Shown here: piece after piece, positions 28,187 to 51,293 of the stretch
How positions within the stretch are numbered: the first letter of the stretch is position 1
Layout of the letters: the number at the start of each line of letters is the position of its first letter
NCBI RefSeq assembly: GCF_030271835.1
Contig: NZ_CP127389.1
Coordinates: 2,516,001 to 2,580,000 of the forward strand
DNA: 64,000 nt
Origin: Proteus appendicitidis
GTDB lineage: Bacteria > Pseudomonadota > Gammaproteobacteria > Enterobacterales > Enterobacteriaceae
Reading direction: 5' to 3'
Notes under the pieces: generated by a model
Databases searched by the model: none
The model's input: only the letters and a program-made list of their open reading frames with translations
What the model was told of the DNA's origin: nothing
Position numbers and translations under genes: made by a program

Positions 28187-28537
28187 TTATGCCCGTTTCT
28201 TTGTCGCATTAGTGTCTTGTTCCGATAACTGACGAAACAAGTTAGAAGAAAGAAGAATGCCAGTATGAATTTGTTGTAAATCATCCACTCTAGATTCTTT
28301 AGTGAGTTGTTCTATTGTTTCGCTGTCTTCAAACCGGAAATTACAGATTAGTTGGTTTGTTTCAGCCAACTTAACCAATTGAGGCAATGTAAGCTCTGCT
28401 AGCGCATCCGCCATTGCGTCACTAATCCCAAGCCGAAACATTGCGGAAGCCTTTTCTTGGTTAATTAACCTTTGCGCTAAAAGCAAATACGATAAATTTA
28501 TGTCATAAATATGCTTAAGCAATTCAACCGTACTCAT
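28187..28537 (-). CDS. flhD: Flagellar master regulator subunit FlhD
   Basis: Encodes 116-residue FlhD, the dimeric helical partner of FlhC. It starts [20 protein letters not shown] and has the conserved [18 protein letters not shown] segment. It is the first gene of the operon; AAGAG precedes the ATG. Upstream lie a 5'-UTR hairpin, an RcsB-type box, a CRP site and 3.7 kb of AT-rich DNA, consistent with heavy regulation. Confidence 0.98.
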
Positions 28538-28572
28538 CTCTTTACATCCCGTCCGATTATATTGAACAAAGA

Positions 28573-28594
28573 GGATCTCTCTAATGAAAGATCC
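28573..28594 (-). promoter_or_regulatory. 5'-UTR hairpin before flhD
   Basis: A 6-bp stem (ggatct/agatcc) with a 10-base loop lies about 36 bases upstream of the flhD ATG. It could affect mRNA stability or translation; no function is shown. Confidence 0.35.
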
Positions 28595-28758
28595 CGAGGA
28601 AATTAATATAAATGTAATATTAAATTTCCAGGCCCCATTTTATGAACATGACTCGTAGTAACACTACCTTGTATTACTTAGTTACGGTCATTTTCAAAAG
28701 TAGCGAAAAAAACATTTAAATTAAAAGTAAACTTTAAATGCTCGCCAATATAGCTCGT

Positions 28759-28772
28759 TAAGAATAATCCTA
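28759..28772 (-). promoter_or_regulatory. RcsB/RcsAB-type box upstream of flhDC
   Basis: On the plus strand TAAGAATAATCCTA, on the minus strand TAGGATTATTCTTA, which is close to the RcsAB box known in the E. coli flhDC promoter (TAGGAAAAATCTTA) and in the same orientation. It lies 222 bases upstream of flhD. Rcs repression of flhDC is established in enteric bacteria including Proteus; occupancy of this site is inferred. Confidence 0.65.
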
Positions 28773-28838
28773 ACGCCACAACTTTACTCCCTAACGATTA
28801 AGTTATTCAACGGATAAAGTAGTCTAATTTAAATACTA

Positions 28839-28854
28839 TGTGAGTCACATCACA
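28839..28854 (-). promoter_or_regulatory. CRP-cAMP site upstream of flhDC
   Basis: TGTGA-N6-TCACA with both half-sites perfect (28,839-28,843 and 28,850-28,854). It lies 302 bases upstream of the flhD ATG. CRP activation of flhDC is known in E. coli; function here is inferred. Confidence 0.7.
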
Positions 28855-31800
28855 AAAAGATAATCATTATTATGGAATTAGTTCATTAACTATTCAAGTG
28901 ATAAAAGTAATAAAACTTGGTGTAAATTAATAAGCTAATCTACCCAAATTAAAATATTAATGATAATTTTTTATTTTATACGATCTATTAAACTTATAAA
29001 CCTAAAAATACAGCATAAAAATTTGACAAATCCGCAATTGTAGATTTTTTTGATCACAGTAACATATATTGATATATCTCCTCCTCATCTTTATCTAAAC
29101 AAGGCTCCCAAATTTAATAAATATTTCTATAGATATTATTTTTTTCGTCATTTACGTAAACCTTCAGAAATGATCACTTTTTATTTACAATTTGTTTGAA
29201 AAATAATCAATTCTAATTATTTATAGTTATCCTAAATTTTTTTATTATTTTGCAACAGAAATTATTCTTTAAAATCAACACCATAATTCAATACATTTAT
29301 TAAGCAGGACGATAAGTCATATAAAATTAAATTCTTAGTTATGCATCTTCACCCTTAAATCATTGAATATTTATTTCCACATTATTAAAGTTTCAACCGT
29401 AATAATACAATTTAACTAATGATTATTAAGCGCTATTTAACACTTAAATTACAGAACTCTTAATAAGTGTTTTCTTGGTTGTAAATTAATCACATAGAAA
29501 TAATACCCACACATAAGTAAGTTTTATTTATGAATTACAGTGTATTTTATGAACAAAATAAATTTTAAATTACCACAACTTTAATATAAAAATAGAAGAG
29601 TATTTTTTTATTTAATTAAATGAAAAAACCTGTTATTTAATTATCAATTCAAAATAGAATATAAAAATAATACATCATTTAACTTAAGTTAAATTTAAAA
29701 AAACAAGCATTTTTTTATAAAATAAAGTCATAATTTATTAGTGTAAAAAATTAAATTAAAATCCGATTATTTTTCTCCTTATATAGATATATATTAATAA
29801 AATAATCGACAATTAATTAACAATATAATACCCATTAAAAAAATATAAAGAAAAAAAGCAGATTTATAATTTATGTCTTATATAAACACACCTCTTTTTT
29901 TATAGAAAAAAGACATTTTATGAAATATAAATTTCAATTTCATAAAAAAAAATCCCAAGATCTCCAATATAAAGTGATTAATTCATAAAATAATAATGCA
30001 GAATATAAATTCTGTTTTTCCTGTTATCAACATTATCTCAACACAATAAACGGCGGTAATGGCAAATATGACAACCTGAAGTTAACACTTGTATACATCA
30101 ACTTTTTCAATGTAAAGACAGAAAAACAAATATGATCAAAATAACATCTCATTGACTATTCTATTAGCATTAGTGCGAACTAAAAAATATCAAATGTTAC
30201 CTTTTAGCCCCAAAACAACCCCTAACAGCAATTGGTTTTGCTCTTACCAATGATGAGCATTGTTTCACTTTCTCTCTTATCGTGTAGTTAACCTCTTTTT
30301 TTCAACCTAGCTAGCACAAGTATCAAGACATTACAGAGCCAAAAGTGCTGACTTCGTAACAGCGTCATTACTTAACAAAAGTTGATGTGGATGGGCTTAG
30401 CAGAGTATAAAGATTTATATATCGGTATATCTTTACTTAAAGCGCTAAAATATATCTCTAAATATTTCTCTATTCTAATCACTAATTTTACTCATTTTGT
30501 TACCCTTTTTATGAGTAATTTTGCGTTTAAAAAGACTTTTCCTCTCTATAAAAACCTAATAAAAATATTGGTGTATCTAAATAATCAAGGCTTATATCTC
30601 ATTTATTAGATTAGTCTTAAAAACCAATAACAGAGCTTAGTATTCTATACACCCAAACTGTTCTAAATTTTTGGAAAAGAAAGGTTTTGAAAAATATTGT
30701 AACCGTATTTTTCAAAAGTAATAATTGAGATTATTCATGTCGTGAATGCAAATACTTTATGCATTGCTTTCAGTTCTATTGAAATGAGTTACATCGTTTT
30801 TAGTAAGCAAACATGAAATGATTGTTCACCCTTTTATACCAGCAATTTTTTAAATTAAAGTTCCTCTTATCGTTGTTTTTATCTTTTTTAGTAAATCGAA
30901 AAAGGTCAGTACCACAATTATCTTTTATATATATTTTTACAGCAAATACTAATGACACATCTATTTCACACTAAGATAATTCTCTTTCTGTAATAAGTAA
31001 GATTTACGTCCTTGACAAAGTTGTAAACAAGATAATTTTGAAATTATTATTTTATTGAATGGAAAGAGTGGTGTGATTTTTCTACTCTTATTATAAGATT
31101 ACTTATTGGTATCATTTTCTCTACATGACCTTTACAAAAAATCCTACAATTTTTCAAAAGATTTTCATTCATAATTGATTAGTGATTACAAACAACATAC
31201 CGCCGCAATTCATCAGCTTTACTGTAGAGGTCTAAACTCACCGTTTTCCTGAATTTTCCCCCATTTTTTGAATGGTCTAATTTGATTAAATTAAAAACAT
31301 TACTCAAAAAATCATACTTAAATTAAATACGATAGAAAATATTGATAAAATTTTCACCAAATACATTGAAATAATTTGAGAGTATAATTTAGGTATTAAA
31401 AAAAAATTCAATATAATCAATGGAAAACATCTATTTTCACCCCAAATTCTATACTGCATTAAGCCCCTTAATAACGATTTTTTGTCCTACAATACTCCTA
31501 AGTACCTCATTTAATAAGTAAACCAAGGGTAGCAATCGCTTACTTGATTTTAGCTTTTTCTATTTATTAAAAACAAAATAAACAAAGATAAATCAAATCA
31601 GCCTAGAACGAGCAATCAATAAAGATGAGAGAGCGCATCAAATATACCTAAACTCTGTTCAACTTTTTTCATTCATAACTCATGATATACGGGTTAACCA
31701 CAATACAAATAATTGGACATGAATCAATTTAGGTAAAAATGTTTGTTTTTATTAAAACGAAAATGAATATATTCCCCCCCCTACTGTGTATTTTAATTAG

Positions 31801-31982
31801 TTTTTTTAAGTTCATTTTTCTACTTTTTATTCCATTAAGTAATAGTTACAAAAATAATAATTACACAAACAAAATACTTTATTTCTATATATCAGTAATA
31901 ATACGTAACTTATGGCTAAGATCTCATTATTCACATCAGAGAAATGAGTTTTAGAATTAAGCCTTATGCTAAAGCTCTTAAT

Positions 31983-32092
31983 AACTTGAGGCTTGGATAG
32001 GCAAAAGTGAATGGTTTACGAAGAACAAACAAAAATATGTGACTGGGATGAATAAGCATAATCGACGACACAACAGCTTGAAATATGGCAGC
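31983..32092 (+). repeat. Degenerate ERIC element
   Basis: The right core (tatgtgactgggatgaataa, then cacaacagcttgaaatatgg) and the left end (cttgaggcttggataggcaa, aagtgaatgg) follow the ERIC order, while the central palindrome is replaced by non-matching sequence. The length is close to a unit ERIC element. Confidence 0.65.
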
Positions 32093-32207
32093 TCTATTAC
32101 TTACAAATTGCAAAGTTATATTCTTTATAACTTTTATCAATATTCATATTCCTTTTTGAAATAACTTTATAATTGGATATCTATCTCGGTCTTTATACGA
32201 CAAAAAA

Positions 32208-32232
32208 ACGCCCTACATTTAATATAGGGCGT
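32208..32232 (-). terminator. Terminator after the MgtC-family gene
   Basis: A stem acgccctac.. / ..atagggcgt (about 9-10 bp) followed on the minus strand by seven T residues, 35 bases after the stop codon. A standard intrinsic terminator. Confidence 0.85.
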
Positions 32233-32266
32233 CTTAAGTAGAAAGATAGTATCTTGAAAAGATCCA

Positions 32267-32965
32267 TCAAGCGGGATGCTCTGCCGCTATCTTCCAATTA
32301 ATTGCACTGACACTCTTTTCTAAACTTACTCTGCAAACAATCGCTTCTATCTCTTTTTGCTCGACAGGTGTTGCCAGTAATTCAGCACAAACTTCCAACT
32401 GGCTAGGCATCAATGTATCAGCACTGCTTAAAGACTGTAATCGAACGTGTAATCCATTGATGGCTTGCAAAATAAGTGTTCTCACTAAAACTTCATCTTC
32501 TTCATGACAAATAATTCGTATTGAGTAGCGTTGCTCTATATCTATTGCTTGATGTTGTGGTTGCGCGTTTATCCGCTGAGCAGCCTCTCGCAGTAAGATA
32601 TTCGCACAAAGAATAAGAACTGTTGCTATGGTTGCCAATTGATATAAACCTAAGCCACATAACACGCCAATTCCTGCTGAACACCAAAGCGTGGCAGCTG
32701 TATTAAGCCCCCGTATATTCATTCCTTCACGCATGATCACACCTGCACCAAGAAACCCAATACCTGAAACAACTTGAGCCGCAATCCGACCAGGGCTATC
32801 TGGCGAAGTTTCTATTGAACTTAAAATAAAAACAGCCGCACCCGTTGCAACTAAAGCATTTGTTCTTAAACCGGCCATTCTTTGTCGCCATTGACGTTCG
32901 GCACCAATCAAAGCACCAAGACACATTGCAATCACGAGATTTAAAATATAAGGCGTCATCGTCAT
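32267..32965 (-). CDS. MgtC/SapB-family inner membrane protein
   Basis: Encodes a 232-residue protein with four to five N-terminal membrane segments (residues ~5-125) and the family signatures CLGALIGAERQWRQRMAGLRTN and VSGIGFLGAGVIMREG, followed by a C-terminal soluble ACT-like domain (about 145-225). MgtC in Salmonella inhibits the F-type ATP synthase and helps growth at low Mg2+; many relatives have unknown roles, so orthology to MgtC is not claimed. GAGGAAATAAAC precedes the ATG. It stands alone, with a good terminator and a 400-base leader region containing a hairpin. Confidence 0.85.
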   Translation of the reverse strand: MTMTPYILNLVIAMCLGALIGAERQWRQRMAGLRTNALVATGAAVFILSSIETSPDSPGRIAAQVVSGIGFLGAGVIMREGMNIRGLNTAATLWCSAGIGVLCGLGLYQLATIATVLILCANILLREAAQRINAQPQHQAIDIEQRYSIRIICHEEDEVLVRTLILQAINGLHVRLQSLSSADTLMPSQLEVCAELLATPVEQKEIEAIVCRVSLEKSVSAINWKIAAEHPA

Positions 32966-33563: not shown

Positions 33564-33619
33564 TTTCTCTCCTGATAAATATTATCATTCTCTTTTTCTT
33601 TATTTTACCCATAAAGAAA

Positions 33620-33647
33620 AAGCCTGCCACCATAAGGTGACAGGCTT
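33620..33647 (-). terminator. Terminator after the cold-shock gene
   Basis: A stem aagcctg(c/t)cacc / ggtgacaggctt, about 11 bp with one mismatch, followed on the minus strand by a T-rich tail (TTTTTCTTT). It lies 27 bases after the stop codon. Confidence 0.85.
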
Positions 33648-33673
33648 GAAGAAAATTTTTAAAAGGCTTTAAA

Positions 33674-33886
33674 TTACAGAGCTGTTACGTTAGCAGCTGC
33701 TGGACCTTTTGCACCGTTTTCAATTGTGAATTCTACGTTCTGACCTTCAGCCAGAGTTTTGAAACCGTTACCTTGAATGGCAGAAAAGTGAACGAATACG
33801 TCTTTGCTTCCGTCTGCTGGAGTAATAAAACCAAAGCCTTTAGACTCGTTGAACCACTTAACTTGACCTTTCATTTTGTCAGACAT
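33674..33886 (-). CDS. CspA-family cold-shock protein, CspC/CspE type
   Basis: Encodes a 70-residue single cold-shock domain protein that binds single-stranded RNA/DNA. Both RNA-binding motifs are intact: KGFGFITP (RNP1) and VFVHFSAI (RNP2). The segment [20 protein letters not shown], with [15 protein letters not shown], follows E. coli CspC and CspE more closely than CspA, but the ending [13 protein letters not shown] is mixed, so I give no symbol. A leader of more than 100 bases upstream is usual for this family. It is monocistronic. Confidence 0.95.
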
Positions 33887-34341
33887 GTGACTTTCCTATA
33901 TATCAATAAAACGTTGCCTTCTCGGCATCTACTGGCCTGAACTACCTATAACTTATGGGCACACATGAAGAAAACGGTCAAAAAGCGATGCTGTTTAAAA
34001 CTCATTAACTTAGAATGTCAATCATAAATCAGGTCTGTATTGAGGCCTTACTCATTAACGCATGAGACAAGTTTAATAGCAATAGTTTTATGCGTCTAAA
34101 GATTAAAAAAATGCGAATTGCACATTAAAAATACAATTCTTCCTCTATTTTTATCACTGTGCATAAAATTTATTTGATATTTTATCTCTATTATTAACAA
34201 TGACTAAGAATATTCTTAGTCACCTAACAATAACAGTTAATGCCAGAATTAAAAAAAACTGTTCTACCCGCTTATCTTGTCCCCGTGATAATCTAGTAAT
34301 AAGAAACAAGTTTGCAACATTCATCTCTTAAGGTATTTACA
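33887..34341. other. csp-ylaC divergent intergenic region
   Basis: About 455 bases. Read toward csp it contains TTGACA at 34,014-34,019, a possible -35 element, and a presumed long cold-shock leader. Toward ylaC it contains the perfect palindrome at 34,201-34,222. No gene is seen. Confidence 0.5.
34201..34222. promoter_or_regulatory. Perfect 22-bp palindrome containing the RcsB consensus
   Basis: The 11-base half tgactaagaat is followed immediately by its exact reverse complement. The centre, 34,205-34,218, is TAAGAATATTCTTA, identical to the idealised RcsAB box. It lies 120 bases upstream of ylaC and 315 bases upstream of csp. Confidence 0.6.
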
Positions 34342-36878: not shown

Positions 36879-37174
36879 CGTCTCGGGATCTTTAATTAGT
36901 CTTTGAATTTGTCAGATTGTATTACTAAACAGTATGAAAAACTTTCTTTTAAAAAAATGCTTTATCTTTTCTTTCTCATGTAAGACTCATTTCAGCGAGT
37001 AGAAATGTAATTTCGAATATTATTTCTACTGATAACCATTTATTTTTTATACACTTTTATCAAAAAAGAAACAATATGATGCACTCTTGAGCAAACAGTT
37101 ATTTTTTTCATTTTTTTACTTTACAAGGTGAGCGAGGATCGCTATTATTCGCCTCGTTCTCACAAGAACTCGCT
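36879..37174. other. Gap between AraC-family gene and tRNA-Asn copy 2
   Basis: About 300 AT-rich bases holding the divergent promoter region of the AraC-family gene and the promoter of tRNA-Asn copy 2. No other feature is recognised. Confidence 0.6.
37120..37148 (+). promoter_or_regulatory. Promoter of tRNA-Asn copy 2
   Basis: TTTACA, 17-base spacer, TATTAT, then tcgcctcg. The downstream leader (cgcctcgttctcac.agaact) is shared with copy 1, differing at one base. Confidence 0.8.
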
Positions 37175-37250
37175 TCCTCCATAGTTCAGTCGGTAGAACG
37201 GCGGACTGTTAATCCGTATGTCACTGGTTCAAGTCCAGTTGGAGGAGCCA
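37175..37250 (+). tRNA. tRNA-Asn (GUU), copy 2
   Basis: A 76-base gene identical to copy 1, including A57 in the T-loop and the encoded CCA. Promoter and terminator are duplicated with it, so the copied unit spans leader, tRNA and terminator. Confidence 0.97.
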
Positions 37251-37258
37251 AATTTAGA

Positions 37259-37287
37259 AAAGCCCGCGCTATTACAGTGCGGGCTTT
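37259..37287 (+). terminator. Terminator of tRNA-Asn copy 2
   Basis: The same aaagcccgc / gcgggcttt hairpin as after copy 1, here followed by TTTTTG, a better T-tail. Confidence 0.9.
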
Positions 37288-37615
37288 TTGCTTTCTACTC
37301 ACCAGTTATTTTTATCCCTCTATTTTCTTGTTTATGCCCTTTGTATCCTCTACATATTCATCTTATATATCTGCTATTTCTATTCAGTTTCTATTTCGTG
37401 TTAACTCAAAATCATCAATAAAAGAATGCCTGTTTATAAGACTGTTTCAATCAGCATCACTCTACTGACTATTTTTTAAACTCAAAACGACCTTATTTGA
37501 TTTAAAAACCATAAATTAGTTATTTTTTAACCACTTAAACTATTATTTCACTTTTTTTACTTTACAAAGTTCATCACCCTCGCTATTATCCGTCTCGTTC
37601 TCACGAGAACTCGCT
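37288..37615. other. Spacer between tRNA-Asn copies 2 and 3
   Basis: About 330 AT-rich bases. Nothing is recognised except the promoter of copy 3 at its right end; short frames here are Phe/Tyr/Ser-rich chance frames. Confidence 0.6.
37561..37589 (+). promoter_or_regulatory. Promoter of tRNA-Asn copy 3
   Basis: TTTACA, 17-base spacer, TATTAT, then the shared leader cgtctcgttctcacgagaac, one base different from copy 1. Confidence 0.8.
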
Positions 37616-37691
37616 TCCTCCATAGTTCAGTCGGTAGAACGGCGGACTGTTAATCCGTATGTCACTGGTTCGAGTCCAGTTGGAGGAGCCA
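37616..37691 (+). tRNA. tRNA-Asn (GUU), copy 3
   Basis: A 76-base gene with encoded CCA. It differs from copies 1 and 2 by G instead of A at T-loop position 57 (TTCGAGT), a neutral purine change. It has its own promoter and terminator. Confidence 0.97.
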
Positions 37692-37699
37692 AATTTAGA

Positions 37700-37728
37700 A
37701 AAGCCCGCGCTATTACAGTGCGGGCTTT
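37700..37728 (+). terminator. Terminator of tRNA-Asn copy 3
   Basis: Third identical copy of the aaagcccgc / gcgggcttt hairpin, followed by TTTTTG. Confidence 0.9.
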
Positions 37729-38012
37729 TTGCTTTCTACCTTCTCTATTATCAAAGCTTTCTCCTTTTTCTATCCATTTTATTTTTCAAAGTCTGCATTG
37801 TCTAAAATACGTTATCTCTTTATTTTTTATCTTTATTTTCAATTTTCAGTGTGAAAAAAATAGCCATTTAAACGCGTTCATTATGTCATTATTAGATTAT
37901 CTGTTTTAGAAACACACAATGTGTTGTTTATCTATGCATTTAAACAAATATTGTCGATTGTCCTTTGACATATCAAATCACCCACTATATGATACACGCC
38001 ACTTAATGTTGT
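37729..38012. other. Spacer between tRNA-Asn copies 3 and 4
   Basis: About 285 AT-rich bases holding only the promoter of copy 4 at the right end. Confidence 0.6.
37965..37993 (+). promoter_or_regulatory. Promoter of tRNA-Asn copy 4
   Basis: TTGACA, 17-base spacer, TATGAT. The leader differs from that of copies 1-3 (acacgccacttaatgttgt), so this copy is not part of the recent duplication unit. Confidence 0.85.
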
Positions 38013-38088
38013 TCCTCCATAGTTCAGTCGGTAGAACGGCGGACTGTTAATCCGTATGTCACTGGTTCGAGTCCAGTTGGAGGAGCCA
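38013..38088 (+). tRNA. tRNA-Asn (GUU), copy 4
   Basis: A 76-base gene identical to copy 3 (G57) with encoded CCA. It lacks the shared leader and terminator; a different hairpin lies at 38,172-38,196. Confidence 0.97.
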
Positions 38089-38171
38089 TTTCTTTTTGTG
38101 TCACCCTCGTAACCTTTTGATTTTATTCTCTGTTTTACCTTACAAAATTCCAAACACATAATAAAAAAATG

Positions 38172-38196
38172 CGATTAAATGGTAGCTATTTAATCG
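38172..38196 (+). terminator. Hairpin between tRNA-Asn copy 4 and pyrC
   Basis: A perfect 9-bp stem (cgattaaat/atttaatcg), 7-base loop, followed by TTTT. It is a candidate terminator of tRNA-Asn copy 4; its AT-richness makes it moderate. Confidence 0.5.
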
Positions 38197-38286
38197 TTTT
38201 CGTATTAGCATTCGTTTCCGGCTTGACTATCTAGTCCAATCCAATCCTTGATCTTTCGATTTTCCTAAGACACACGGAGCCGGTAT

Positions 38287-50873: not shown

Positions 50874-51293
50874 TCAAAAAATCTATAAATTAGATTAGTT
50901 AATAGTTTTTTTTCTTCAAAAAATTACACTTTTACATTTAAAGCCCTAATTGTTATTTTTTTTATTCTATTTTTTGTAATTTATTGTTTATTAAGAACAT
51001 TCTTACCACCCTTTTGTTAACACCCATAAAATTTTCTTGTCCTCTTTTTTCAAAAAATTGCAAGGTTAACTATTGCAAAATGAGATTTTTATCGACTTTT
51101 GCACCAAAAAATGGTTTATAAAGTATTAAATATACTTTTAGTCACTAAATTCTGACAAAAGTATGTTAAAAATATATTAATTAAATGCAGTGGATATTGA
51201 TAACAGAATGAAATAATTTTGTTTAGCCACTAGCTGATATTTTGTTCTTTTTACTTGCAAACGACCTGTAGAGGTTTTTTTTGGGAATTTAAG
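50874..51293. other. AT-rich gap before the POT transporter, with RcsB-like box
   Basis: 420 bases without a gene. At 50,992-51,005 is TAAGAACATTCTTA, which differs from the RcsAB box ideal TAAGAATATTCTTA at one base and is itself an inverted repeat. It lies 288 bases upstream of the transporter start. No other motif is recognised. Confidence 0.45.

Follow-up and report, generated by a model that had tools for sequence, protein, structure and literature searches.

The gene-free interval upstream of flhDC in Proteus as a probable composite of a promoter block, an AT-rich spacer, and the site of a decayed mgtB gene

RESULTS

A composite interval between flhD and mgtC

We analyzed a 64,000-nucleotide stretch of the Proteus appendicitidis genome, referred to here as the window. 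In it, flhD and mgtC are separated by a gap of 3,729 bp (28538-32266) with a G+C content of 25.8%. This gap is very probably made of three parts: about 650 bp of flhDC promoter and leader, about 0.85 kb of AT-rich spacer, and about 2.2 kb that was once the place of mgtB, a gene for a Mg2+ P-type ATPase, and now holds its decayed remains. The sequences support this three-part anatomy, the remains of mgtB, and a series in relatives that runs from an intact gene to a nearly erased ghost. What looked like a giant control region in a model swarming genus can therefore be divided into two testable pieces, a promoter block of ~0.65 kb and a gene fossil, and the fossil should not be taken as regulation without a test.

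No ORF of at least 80 amino acids (aa) was found within the gap, and its G+C content was 0.258, compared with 0.380 across a 400-kb sample of this genome. With ORFs of at least 80 aa as boundaries, it ranked first in length among 288 gaps and was 2.6 times as long as the runner-up (1,408 bp), in a sample of the window plus 20 stretches of 20 kb each (464 kb, ~11% of the 4.1-Mb genome), so that a longer gap may exist elsewhere. When the ORF cutoff was lowered to 60 aa, chance ORFs broke up the gap, and the biggest fragment left (1,844 bp) still ranked first among 307 (the next was 1,575 bp). The 1-kb interval with the lowest G+C content among 1,793 was 29001-30000 (0.197). The initial annotation had described 3.7 kb without genes, unlike the gene-dense remainder of the window, and had put a 180-base sample (29581-29760) at about 12% G+C. 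The exact coordinates, the lack of ORFs of at least 80 aa, and the rank of the gap bear out the first statement, and the sample measured 11.7%. The runner-up gap, also without an ORF of at least 80 aa, is at 36879-38286.

FlhD was present and mgtC was open in all 20 Proteus genomes. The gap was 3,320 to 3,729 bp long in all 18 in which it could be measured, the window included, and it always ended at the same mgtC gene. Two loci (L052 and L058) are outside this count because their contigs end within the gap, after 1,232 and 2,361 bp, and L138, which duplicates the locus of the window, was not counted. Within Proteus, therefore, the interval proved to be neither absent nor random in length when it was checked in close relatives. 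In Photorhabdus, mgtC was 3,262 to 3,668 bp upstream of flhD at 9/9 named loci. The distance from flhD to the closest ORF of at least 100 aa was usually below 1.8 kb at loci from Serratia, Rahnella, and Pantoea.

The flhD-proximal 0.65 kb resembles enteric flhDC promoter regions

Alignment of the 18 Proteus gaps revealed a single strongly conserved block, 0 to 650 bp upstream of flhD. Its features are as follows.

28187-28537, minus strand: flhD, an open frame of 116 aa downstream of the gap, with its start at 28537.
28538-28757, minus strand: putative flhD leader (5' untranslated region), with a hairpin at 28572-28595; identity of 0.945 among five representative Proteus species.
28758-29021, minus strand: promoter core conserved beyond the genus (blastn, 70 to 77% identity at 30/30 Xenorhabdus, Photorhabdus, and MAG loci).
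28759-28772, minus strand: RcsAB-like box, an exact match to the pattern.
28839-28854, no strand assigned: CRP box (TGTGA-N6-TCACA, 0 mismatches).
29022-29200, no strand assigned: upstream extension of the control region, conserved in Proteus (identity of 0.864 at 484 to 650 bp upstream of flhD).

Mean pairwise identities among the five representatives were 0.945, 0.964, and 0.864 in the successive bands of this block, versus 0.552 at the third codon positions of mgtC. In the rest of the gap, identity was 0.56 to 0.70. The promoter core lies 221 to 484 bp upstream of flhD. Among five other loci, one from Serratia matched it, over 105 bp. The leader is outside the cross-genus blastn match, and its conservation is confined to Proteus. 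More than 0.5 kb upstream of flhD, the only cross-genus DNA similarity was one weak, out-of-place match in P. thracensis (E value, 8e-4).

The CRP and RcsAB-like boxes were searched for as sequence patterns. By these patterns, a perfect CRP box was present in 20/20 Proteus genomes and at 30/30 Xenorhabdus, Photorhabdus, and MAG loci. An RcsAB-like box with no more than two mismatches accompanied it in 19/20 and 29/30, always nearer to flhD, by 82 bp in Proteus and by 84 bp in the others. The exceptions were L130 in Proteus and L087 in the other set. Both boxes were also found, at the 84-bp offset, in Serratia L098 and Rahnella L107. Pantoea L127 had the CRP box alone, and neither box was present at L102 (Serratia sp. 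Ag1) or L122 (Arsenophonus). Therefore, the CRP and Rcs motifs that the initial annotation had noted at the flhD-proximal end were both found there, and the region that holds them is strongly conserved.

The regulation of flhDC in P. mirabilis was reportedly addressed by Clemmer and Rather in 2007. Judging by its sequence, the proximal ~0.65 kb is an ordinary enteric flhDC promoter with its leader. As at Serratia L098 and Rahnella L107, a perfect CRP box is combined with an RcsAB-like box at an offset fixed at 82 to 84 bp, but here the next gene is 3.7 kb away. As in other enterics, flhDC would be controlled from this segment through a CRP-dependent promoter, with the Rcs-like box close to where the transcript begins and with ~220 nucleotides of leader, counted from a predicted start position. 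Crp of P. mirabilis is described as binding a 666-bp flhDC promoter fragment (PMC5544767).

Several smaller observations concern this block. Locus L130 (genome G126) lacks 50 bp of it, ~195 to 260 bp upstream of flhD, including the RcsAB-like box, and keeps the CRP box; it is a predicted natural flhDC promoter without an Rcs box. Elsewhere in the window, RcsAB-like palindromes occur at 34205-34218 (one mismatch) and 50992-51005 (two mismatches), and matches in the whole window numbered six, versus a shuffle mean of 1.7. Two small ORFs, 28642-28719 (plus strand, 25 aa) and 28971-29057 (minus strand, 28 aa), have kept start, stop, and frame in 18/18 and 17/18 Proteus gaps, respectively. Both are within the conserved block, and therefore their retention may mean nothing.

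Intact and broken mgtB genes occupy the same place in relatives

The other side of the gap is marked by the following.

32205-32235, minus strand: hairpin resembling an intrinsic terminator, just after mgtC (14-pair stem and then a T run).
32267-32965, minus strand: mgtC (MgtC family; NCBIfam NF011912, 330.9 bits), intact, the former partner of mgtB.

Just upstream of mgtC is a cold-shock gene (33617-34027, minus strand) with a full-length match to the cspA thermoregulator RNA (RF01766, 195.6 bits).

An intact gene for a Mg2+ P-type ATPase (NF011702) lies between mgtC and flhD in Xenorhabdus kozodoii (906 aa; 1,658 bits) and Xenorhabdus sp. IM139775 (899 aa; 1,644 bits), filling the space as far as 1.56 kb before flhD. 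Sixteen further named Xenorhabdus loci have broken pieces of MgtB in the same place, with identities from ~90% down to ~40%; two others (L072 and L073) are too short to judge. Older pieces are at this place in 9/9 Photorhabdus loci and in MAG L081. Eight more loci (L185, L190, L191, L192, L193, L194, L195, and L152) have both genes intact, in the order mgtC-mgtB, upstream of flhD and on its strand. The order at L185 is csp-mgtC-mgtB-flhD, with mgtB ending 368 bp from flhD, and beyond mgtC both L185 and L194 have the same csp gene as the window. The distance from the end of mgtB to flhD is ~1.57 kb in L190 and L192, ~2.7 kb in L191, L195, and L152, 5.6 kb in L193, and 12 kb in L194; three of the intact-mgtB loci have other DNA of 5.6 to 12 kb, or a spacing that matches less well, before flhD. 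Because intact or broken mgtB occupies the same place in relatives, mgtC-mgtB near flhDC on one strand is probably the ancestral order, and the Proteus gap would be the former place of mgtB.

Other relatives have no mgtB there. In all four genomes of one related genus, mgtC is ~1.72 kb from flhD, and at L186 it is 2.15 kb away, with no mgtB match between the two genes in either case. Therefore, the ghost can be lost. Of the four genomes of that genus, three carry a full-length MgtB-like frame at another site and the fourth carries one of 613 aa. In genomes G093, G247, G320, and G382, mgtC is alone by flhDC and an MgtB-like frame is elsewhere (905 aa in three and 613 aa in G093), so in these the mgtC/mgtB pair has been separated. 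Seven Xenorhabdus loci (L071, L078, L079, L083, L085, L086, and L087) keep mgtB pieces with no mgtC match in 6 to 10 kb of upstream DNA. At an eighth, L062, there is a 62% match to mgtC but no ORF of at least 100 aa, which suggests that this gene, too, has decayed. Three genera thus provide, at one locus, a graded series from an intact gene to a nearly erased ghost, which should be useful for measuring how pseudogenes lose sequence and length.

Remains of mgtB in Proteus

In the window, the predicted ghost and its recognizable part are as follows.

30041-32200, minus strand: mgtB ghost, approximate limits drawn from synteny and a G+C step (G+C, 0.281).
31077-31490, minus strand: recognizable part of the ghost (MgtB profile positions 347 to 484; 32.3 bits; E value, 8.2e-12).

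The profile was built from ten intact relatives. MgtB is recognizable in the window only at positions 347 to 484, and synteny and G+C content were therefore used to place the ends of the ghost. The step, from 0.22 to 0.32, is 1.5 kb upstream of flhD, near the position at which the Xenorhabdus mgtB ends (1.56 kb). A search of the same genome with X. kozodoii MgtB matched seven places. Six of them belong to other P-type ATPases with long open frames (818, 690, and 982 aa). The remaining match was in the gap (31092-31538, minus strand; E value, 2.7e-7) and had six stops in 149 codons. P. hauseri (L056) retains more, with three MgtB stretches in order: 339 to 500 (E value, 3e-22), 511 to 629 (3e-5), and 785 to 823 (6e-3).

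The match extends across the genus. In the profile test, 17/18 Proteus gaps matched in register and outscored all 540 shuffles, which reached 1.0 bit at most; the lowest score among the 17 was that of L050, at 4.4 bits. P. mirabilis (L057) had no in-register match (0.3 bits, out of register). L058, searched in addition to the 18, ends short of the relevant stretch and gave no match. When only the best high-scoring segment pair (HSP) was counted, 16/18 gaps beat all 540 shuffles, and antisense and reversed copies stayed at shuffle level. The exceptions were P. mirabilis, beaten by one of the 540 shuffles, and L135, beaten by two. These two tests replaced a score of chained HSPs that was not stringent enough. 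Its three queries gave shuffle scores as high as 115, 128, and 104 bits, and when L084 was the query, no more than 4/18 gaps scored above the shuffle maximum.

We looked for an open mgtB frame of ~900 aa in the gap and found none, there being no ORF of even 80 aa. Identities at the three codon phases of the recognizable stretch were 0.671, 0.654, and 0.689 among the five representative species, versus 0.909, 0.975, and 0.552 for mgtC. The three phases are alike, and therefore mgtB was dead before these species diverged. No intact MgtA or MgtB was found in any of the 20 Proteus genomes searched; the best MgtB match anywhere in the 19 other than that of the window had E values from 8e-12 to 1.1e-17. 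Therefore, all 20 have retained mgtC in the absence of mgtB and of any intact MgtA or MgtB.

We propose that the ancestor had mgtC-mgtB-flhDC on one strand, that mgtB was inactivated and decayed in the Proteus line while mgtC and flhDC were retained, and that the space it left would have become AT-rich noncoding DNA. As in the enteric mgtCB operon (mgtC, NF011912; mgtB, NF011702/TIGR01524), an intact mgtC is followed by collinear mgtB sequence on the same strand, but here mgtB is a dead gene that has lost part of its 5' end, and mgtC is followed by the terminator-like hairpin. The remains are like other eroded bacterial pseudogenes in their stops and frame breaks, lowered G+C content, lost codon-phase signal, and collinear fragments. 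Bacterial pseudogenes are usually deleted fast. This one differs in that ~2 kb remains with most of the identity lost and in that separate ghosts occupy the same place in two other genera. Among the titles and abstract openings that literature searches brought up, we found no description of a dead mgtB next to flhDC.

Slow decay could account for the persistence of the ghost

Between the promoter block and the ghost is the remaining part of the gap.

29201-30040, no strand assigned: AT-rich spacer (G+C, 0.186), with conserved patches at 29318-29347, 29358-29387, and 29448-29477.

A dip of high AT content 1.0 to 1.5 kb upstream of flhD was present in 16/16 Proteus, Photorhabdus, and Xenorhabdus profiles. 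Two of these have intact mgtB, and there the 250- to 500-bp step was lower still or equal. Since the dip also occurs with intact mgtB, the spacer is older than the loss of that gene. The spacer, at 29.2 to 30.0 kb, is candidate H-NS-binding DNA and the portion of the gap in which the H-NS suggestion of the initial annotation most deserves a test.

In 2 kb of ghost, close species differed by 5 to 12 indel events (6 to 14 bases) versus 157 to 266 substitutions, and species across the genus differed by 9 to 34 events (98 to 365 bases) versus 409 to 766 substitutions. With so few indels per substitution, the length of the ghost can outlast its sequence unaided. Therefore, slow decay can explain, at these apparent rates, why the ghost persists, and we infer that it is functionally inert.

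Some observations nonetheless argue against complete neutrality of the ghost. Identity in the distal part is mostly similar to that at mgtC third positions, but conserved patches occur in clumps. Variability within the ghost was lower than at those positions (0.37 versus 0.53) when 11 close genomes were compared. Its conservation was clumped (variance 3.1 times the permuted mean, reached in 0/5,000 permutations), and its best 40-bp interval was reached by 58/5,000 permutations in the close group and by 3/5,000 in all 18. Intervals conserved in the close group tended to be conserved in other species also (Spearman coefficient, 0.36; P = 0.0012; n = 80). The conserved patches inside the ghost are at 31358-31387, 31088-31117, 30988-31017, and 31838-31867. 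Uneven mutation rates and alignment effects may be simpler causes of such patches. It is also conceivable, though we consider it unlikely, that once mgtB had died, what was left of it came to serve flhDC as a distal, AT-rich element for control or insulation, perhaps through parallel events in Proteus, Photorhabdus, and Xenorhabdus. If true, this would account for the kept length in three genera and for the conserved patches inside a dead gene. A reading in which length is selected is made less likely by the slow indels and the relatives without the ghost.

A broader idea is that the whole 3.7 kb is an H-NS-bound flhDC control landscape with several promoters, selected for its length and AT-richness, for which mgtB was incidental raw material. 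The initial annotation had suggested a regulatory landscape of this extent. We think it very unlikely. The gap is of similar length in 18/18 Proteus and 9/9 Photorhabdus loci even though no sequence is shared beyond 0.5 kb, the AT dip is at the same place in three genera, and the clumped conservation of the ghost tends to recur between species, all of which would favor a landscape. However, indels are few enough per substitution for length to persist without selection, the relatives described above have shorter intervals without the ghost, and several Xenorhabdus lack mgtC or have only part of mgtB. Nor are promoter-like sites enriched, the gap having 23 versus a shuffle mean of 28.0 (standard deviation, 5.8). 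What stands of the suggestion is the flhD-proximal part; the distal ~2.2 kb is better read as the site of mgtB with its recognizable remains.

Finally, it is hardly credible that the gap hides an unrecognized small RNA or small-protein gene: three of the conserved patches (31358-31387, 31088-31117, and 30988-31017) and a 41-aa ORF (31047-31172, minus strand) with start, stop, and frame kept in 12/18 Proteus gaps could be so read, but the sole Rfam match in the gap was below threshold (E value, 2.6), no terminator-like site was found in 28596-32204, distal windows gave no convincing consensus structure, their extreme z-scores stemming from near-zero shuffle variance at -2 to -5 kcal/mol, and the ORFs kept in 17 or 18 of 18 gaps are in the proximal conserved block, where retention is expected anyway. 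In the structure scan, the one modest signal came from the flhD leader, in windows covering 28598-28777 (z-scores of -2.7 to -3.4).
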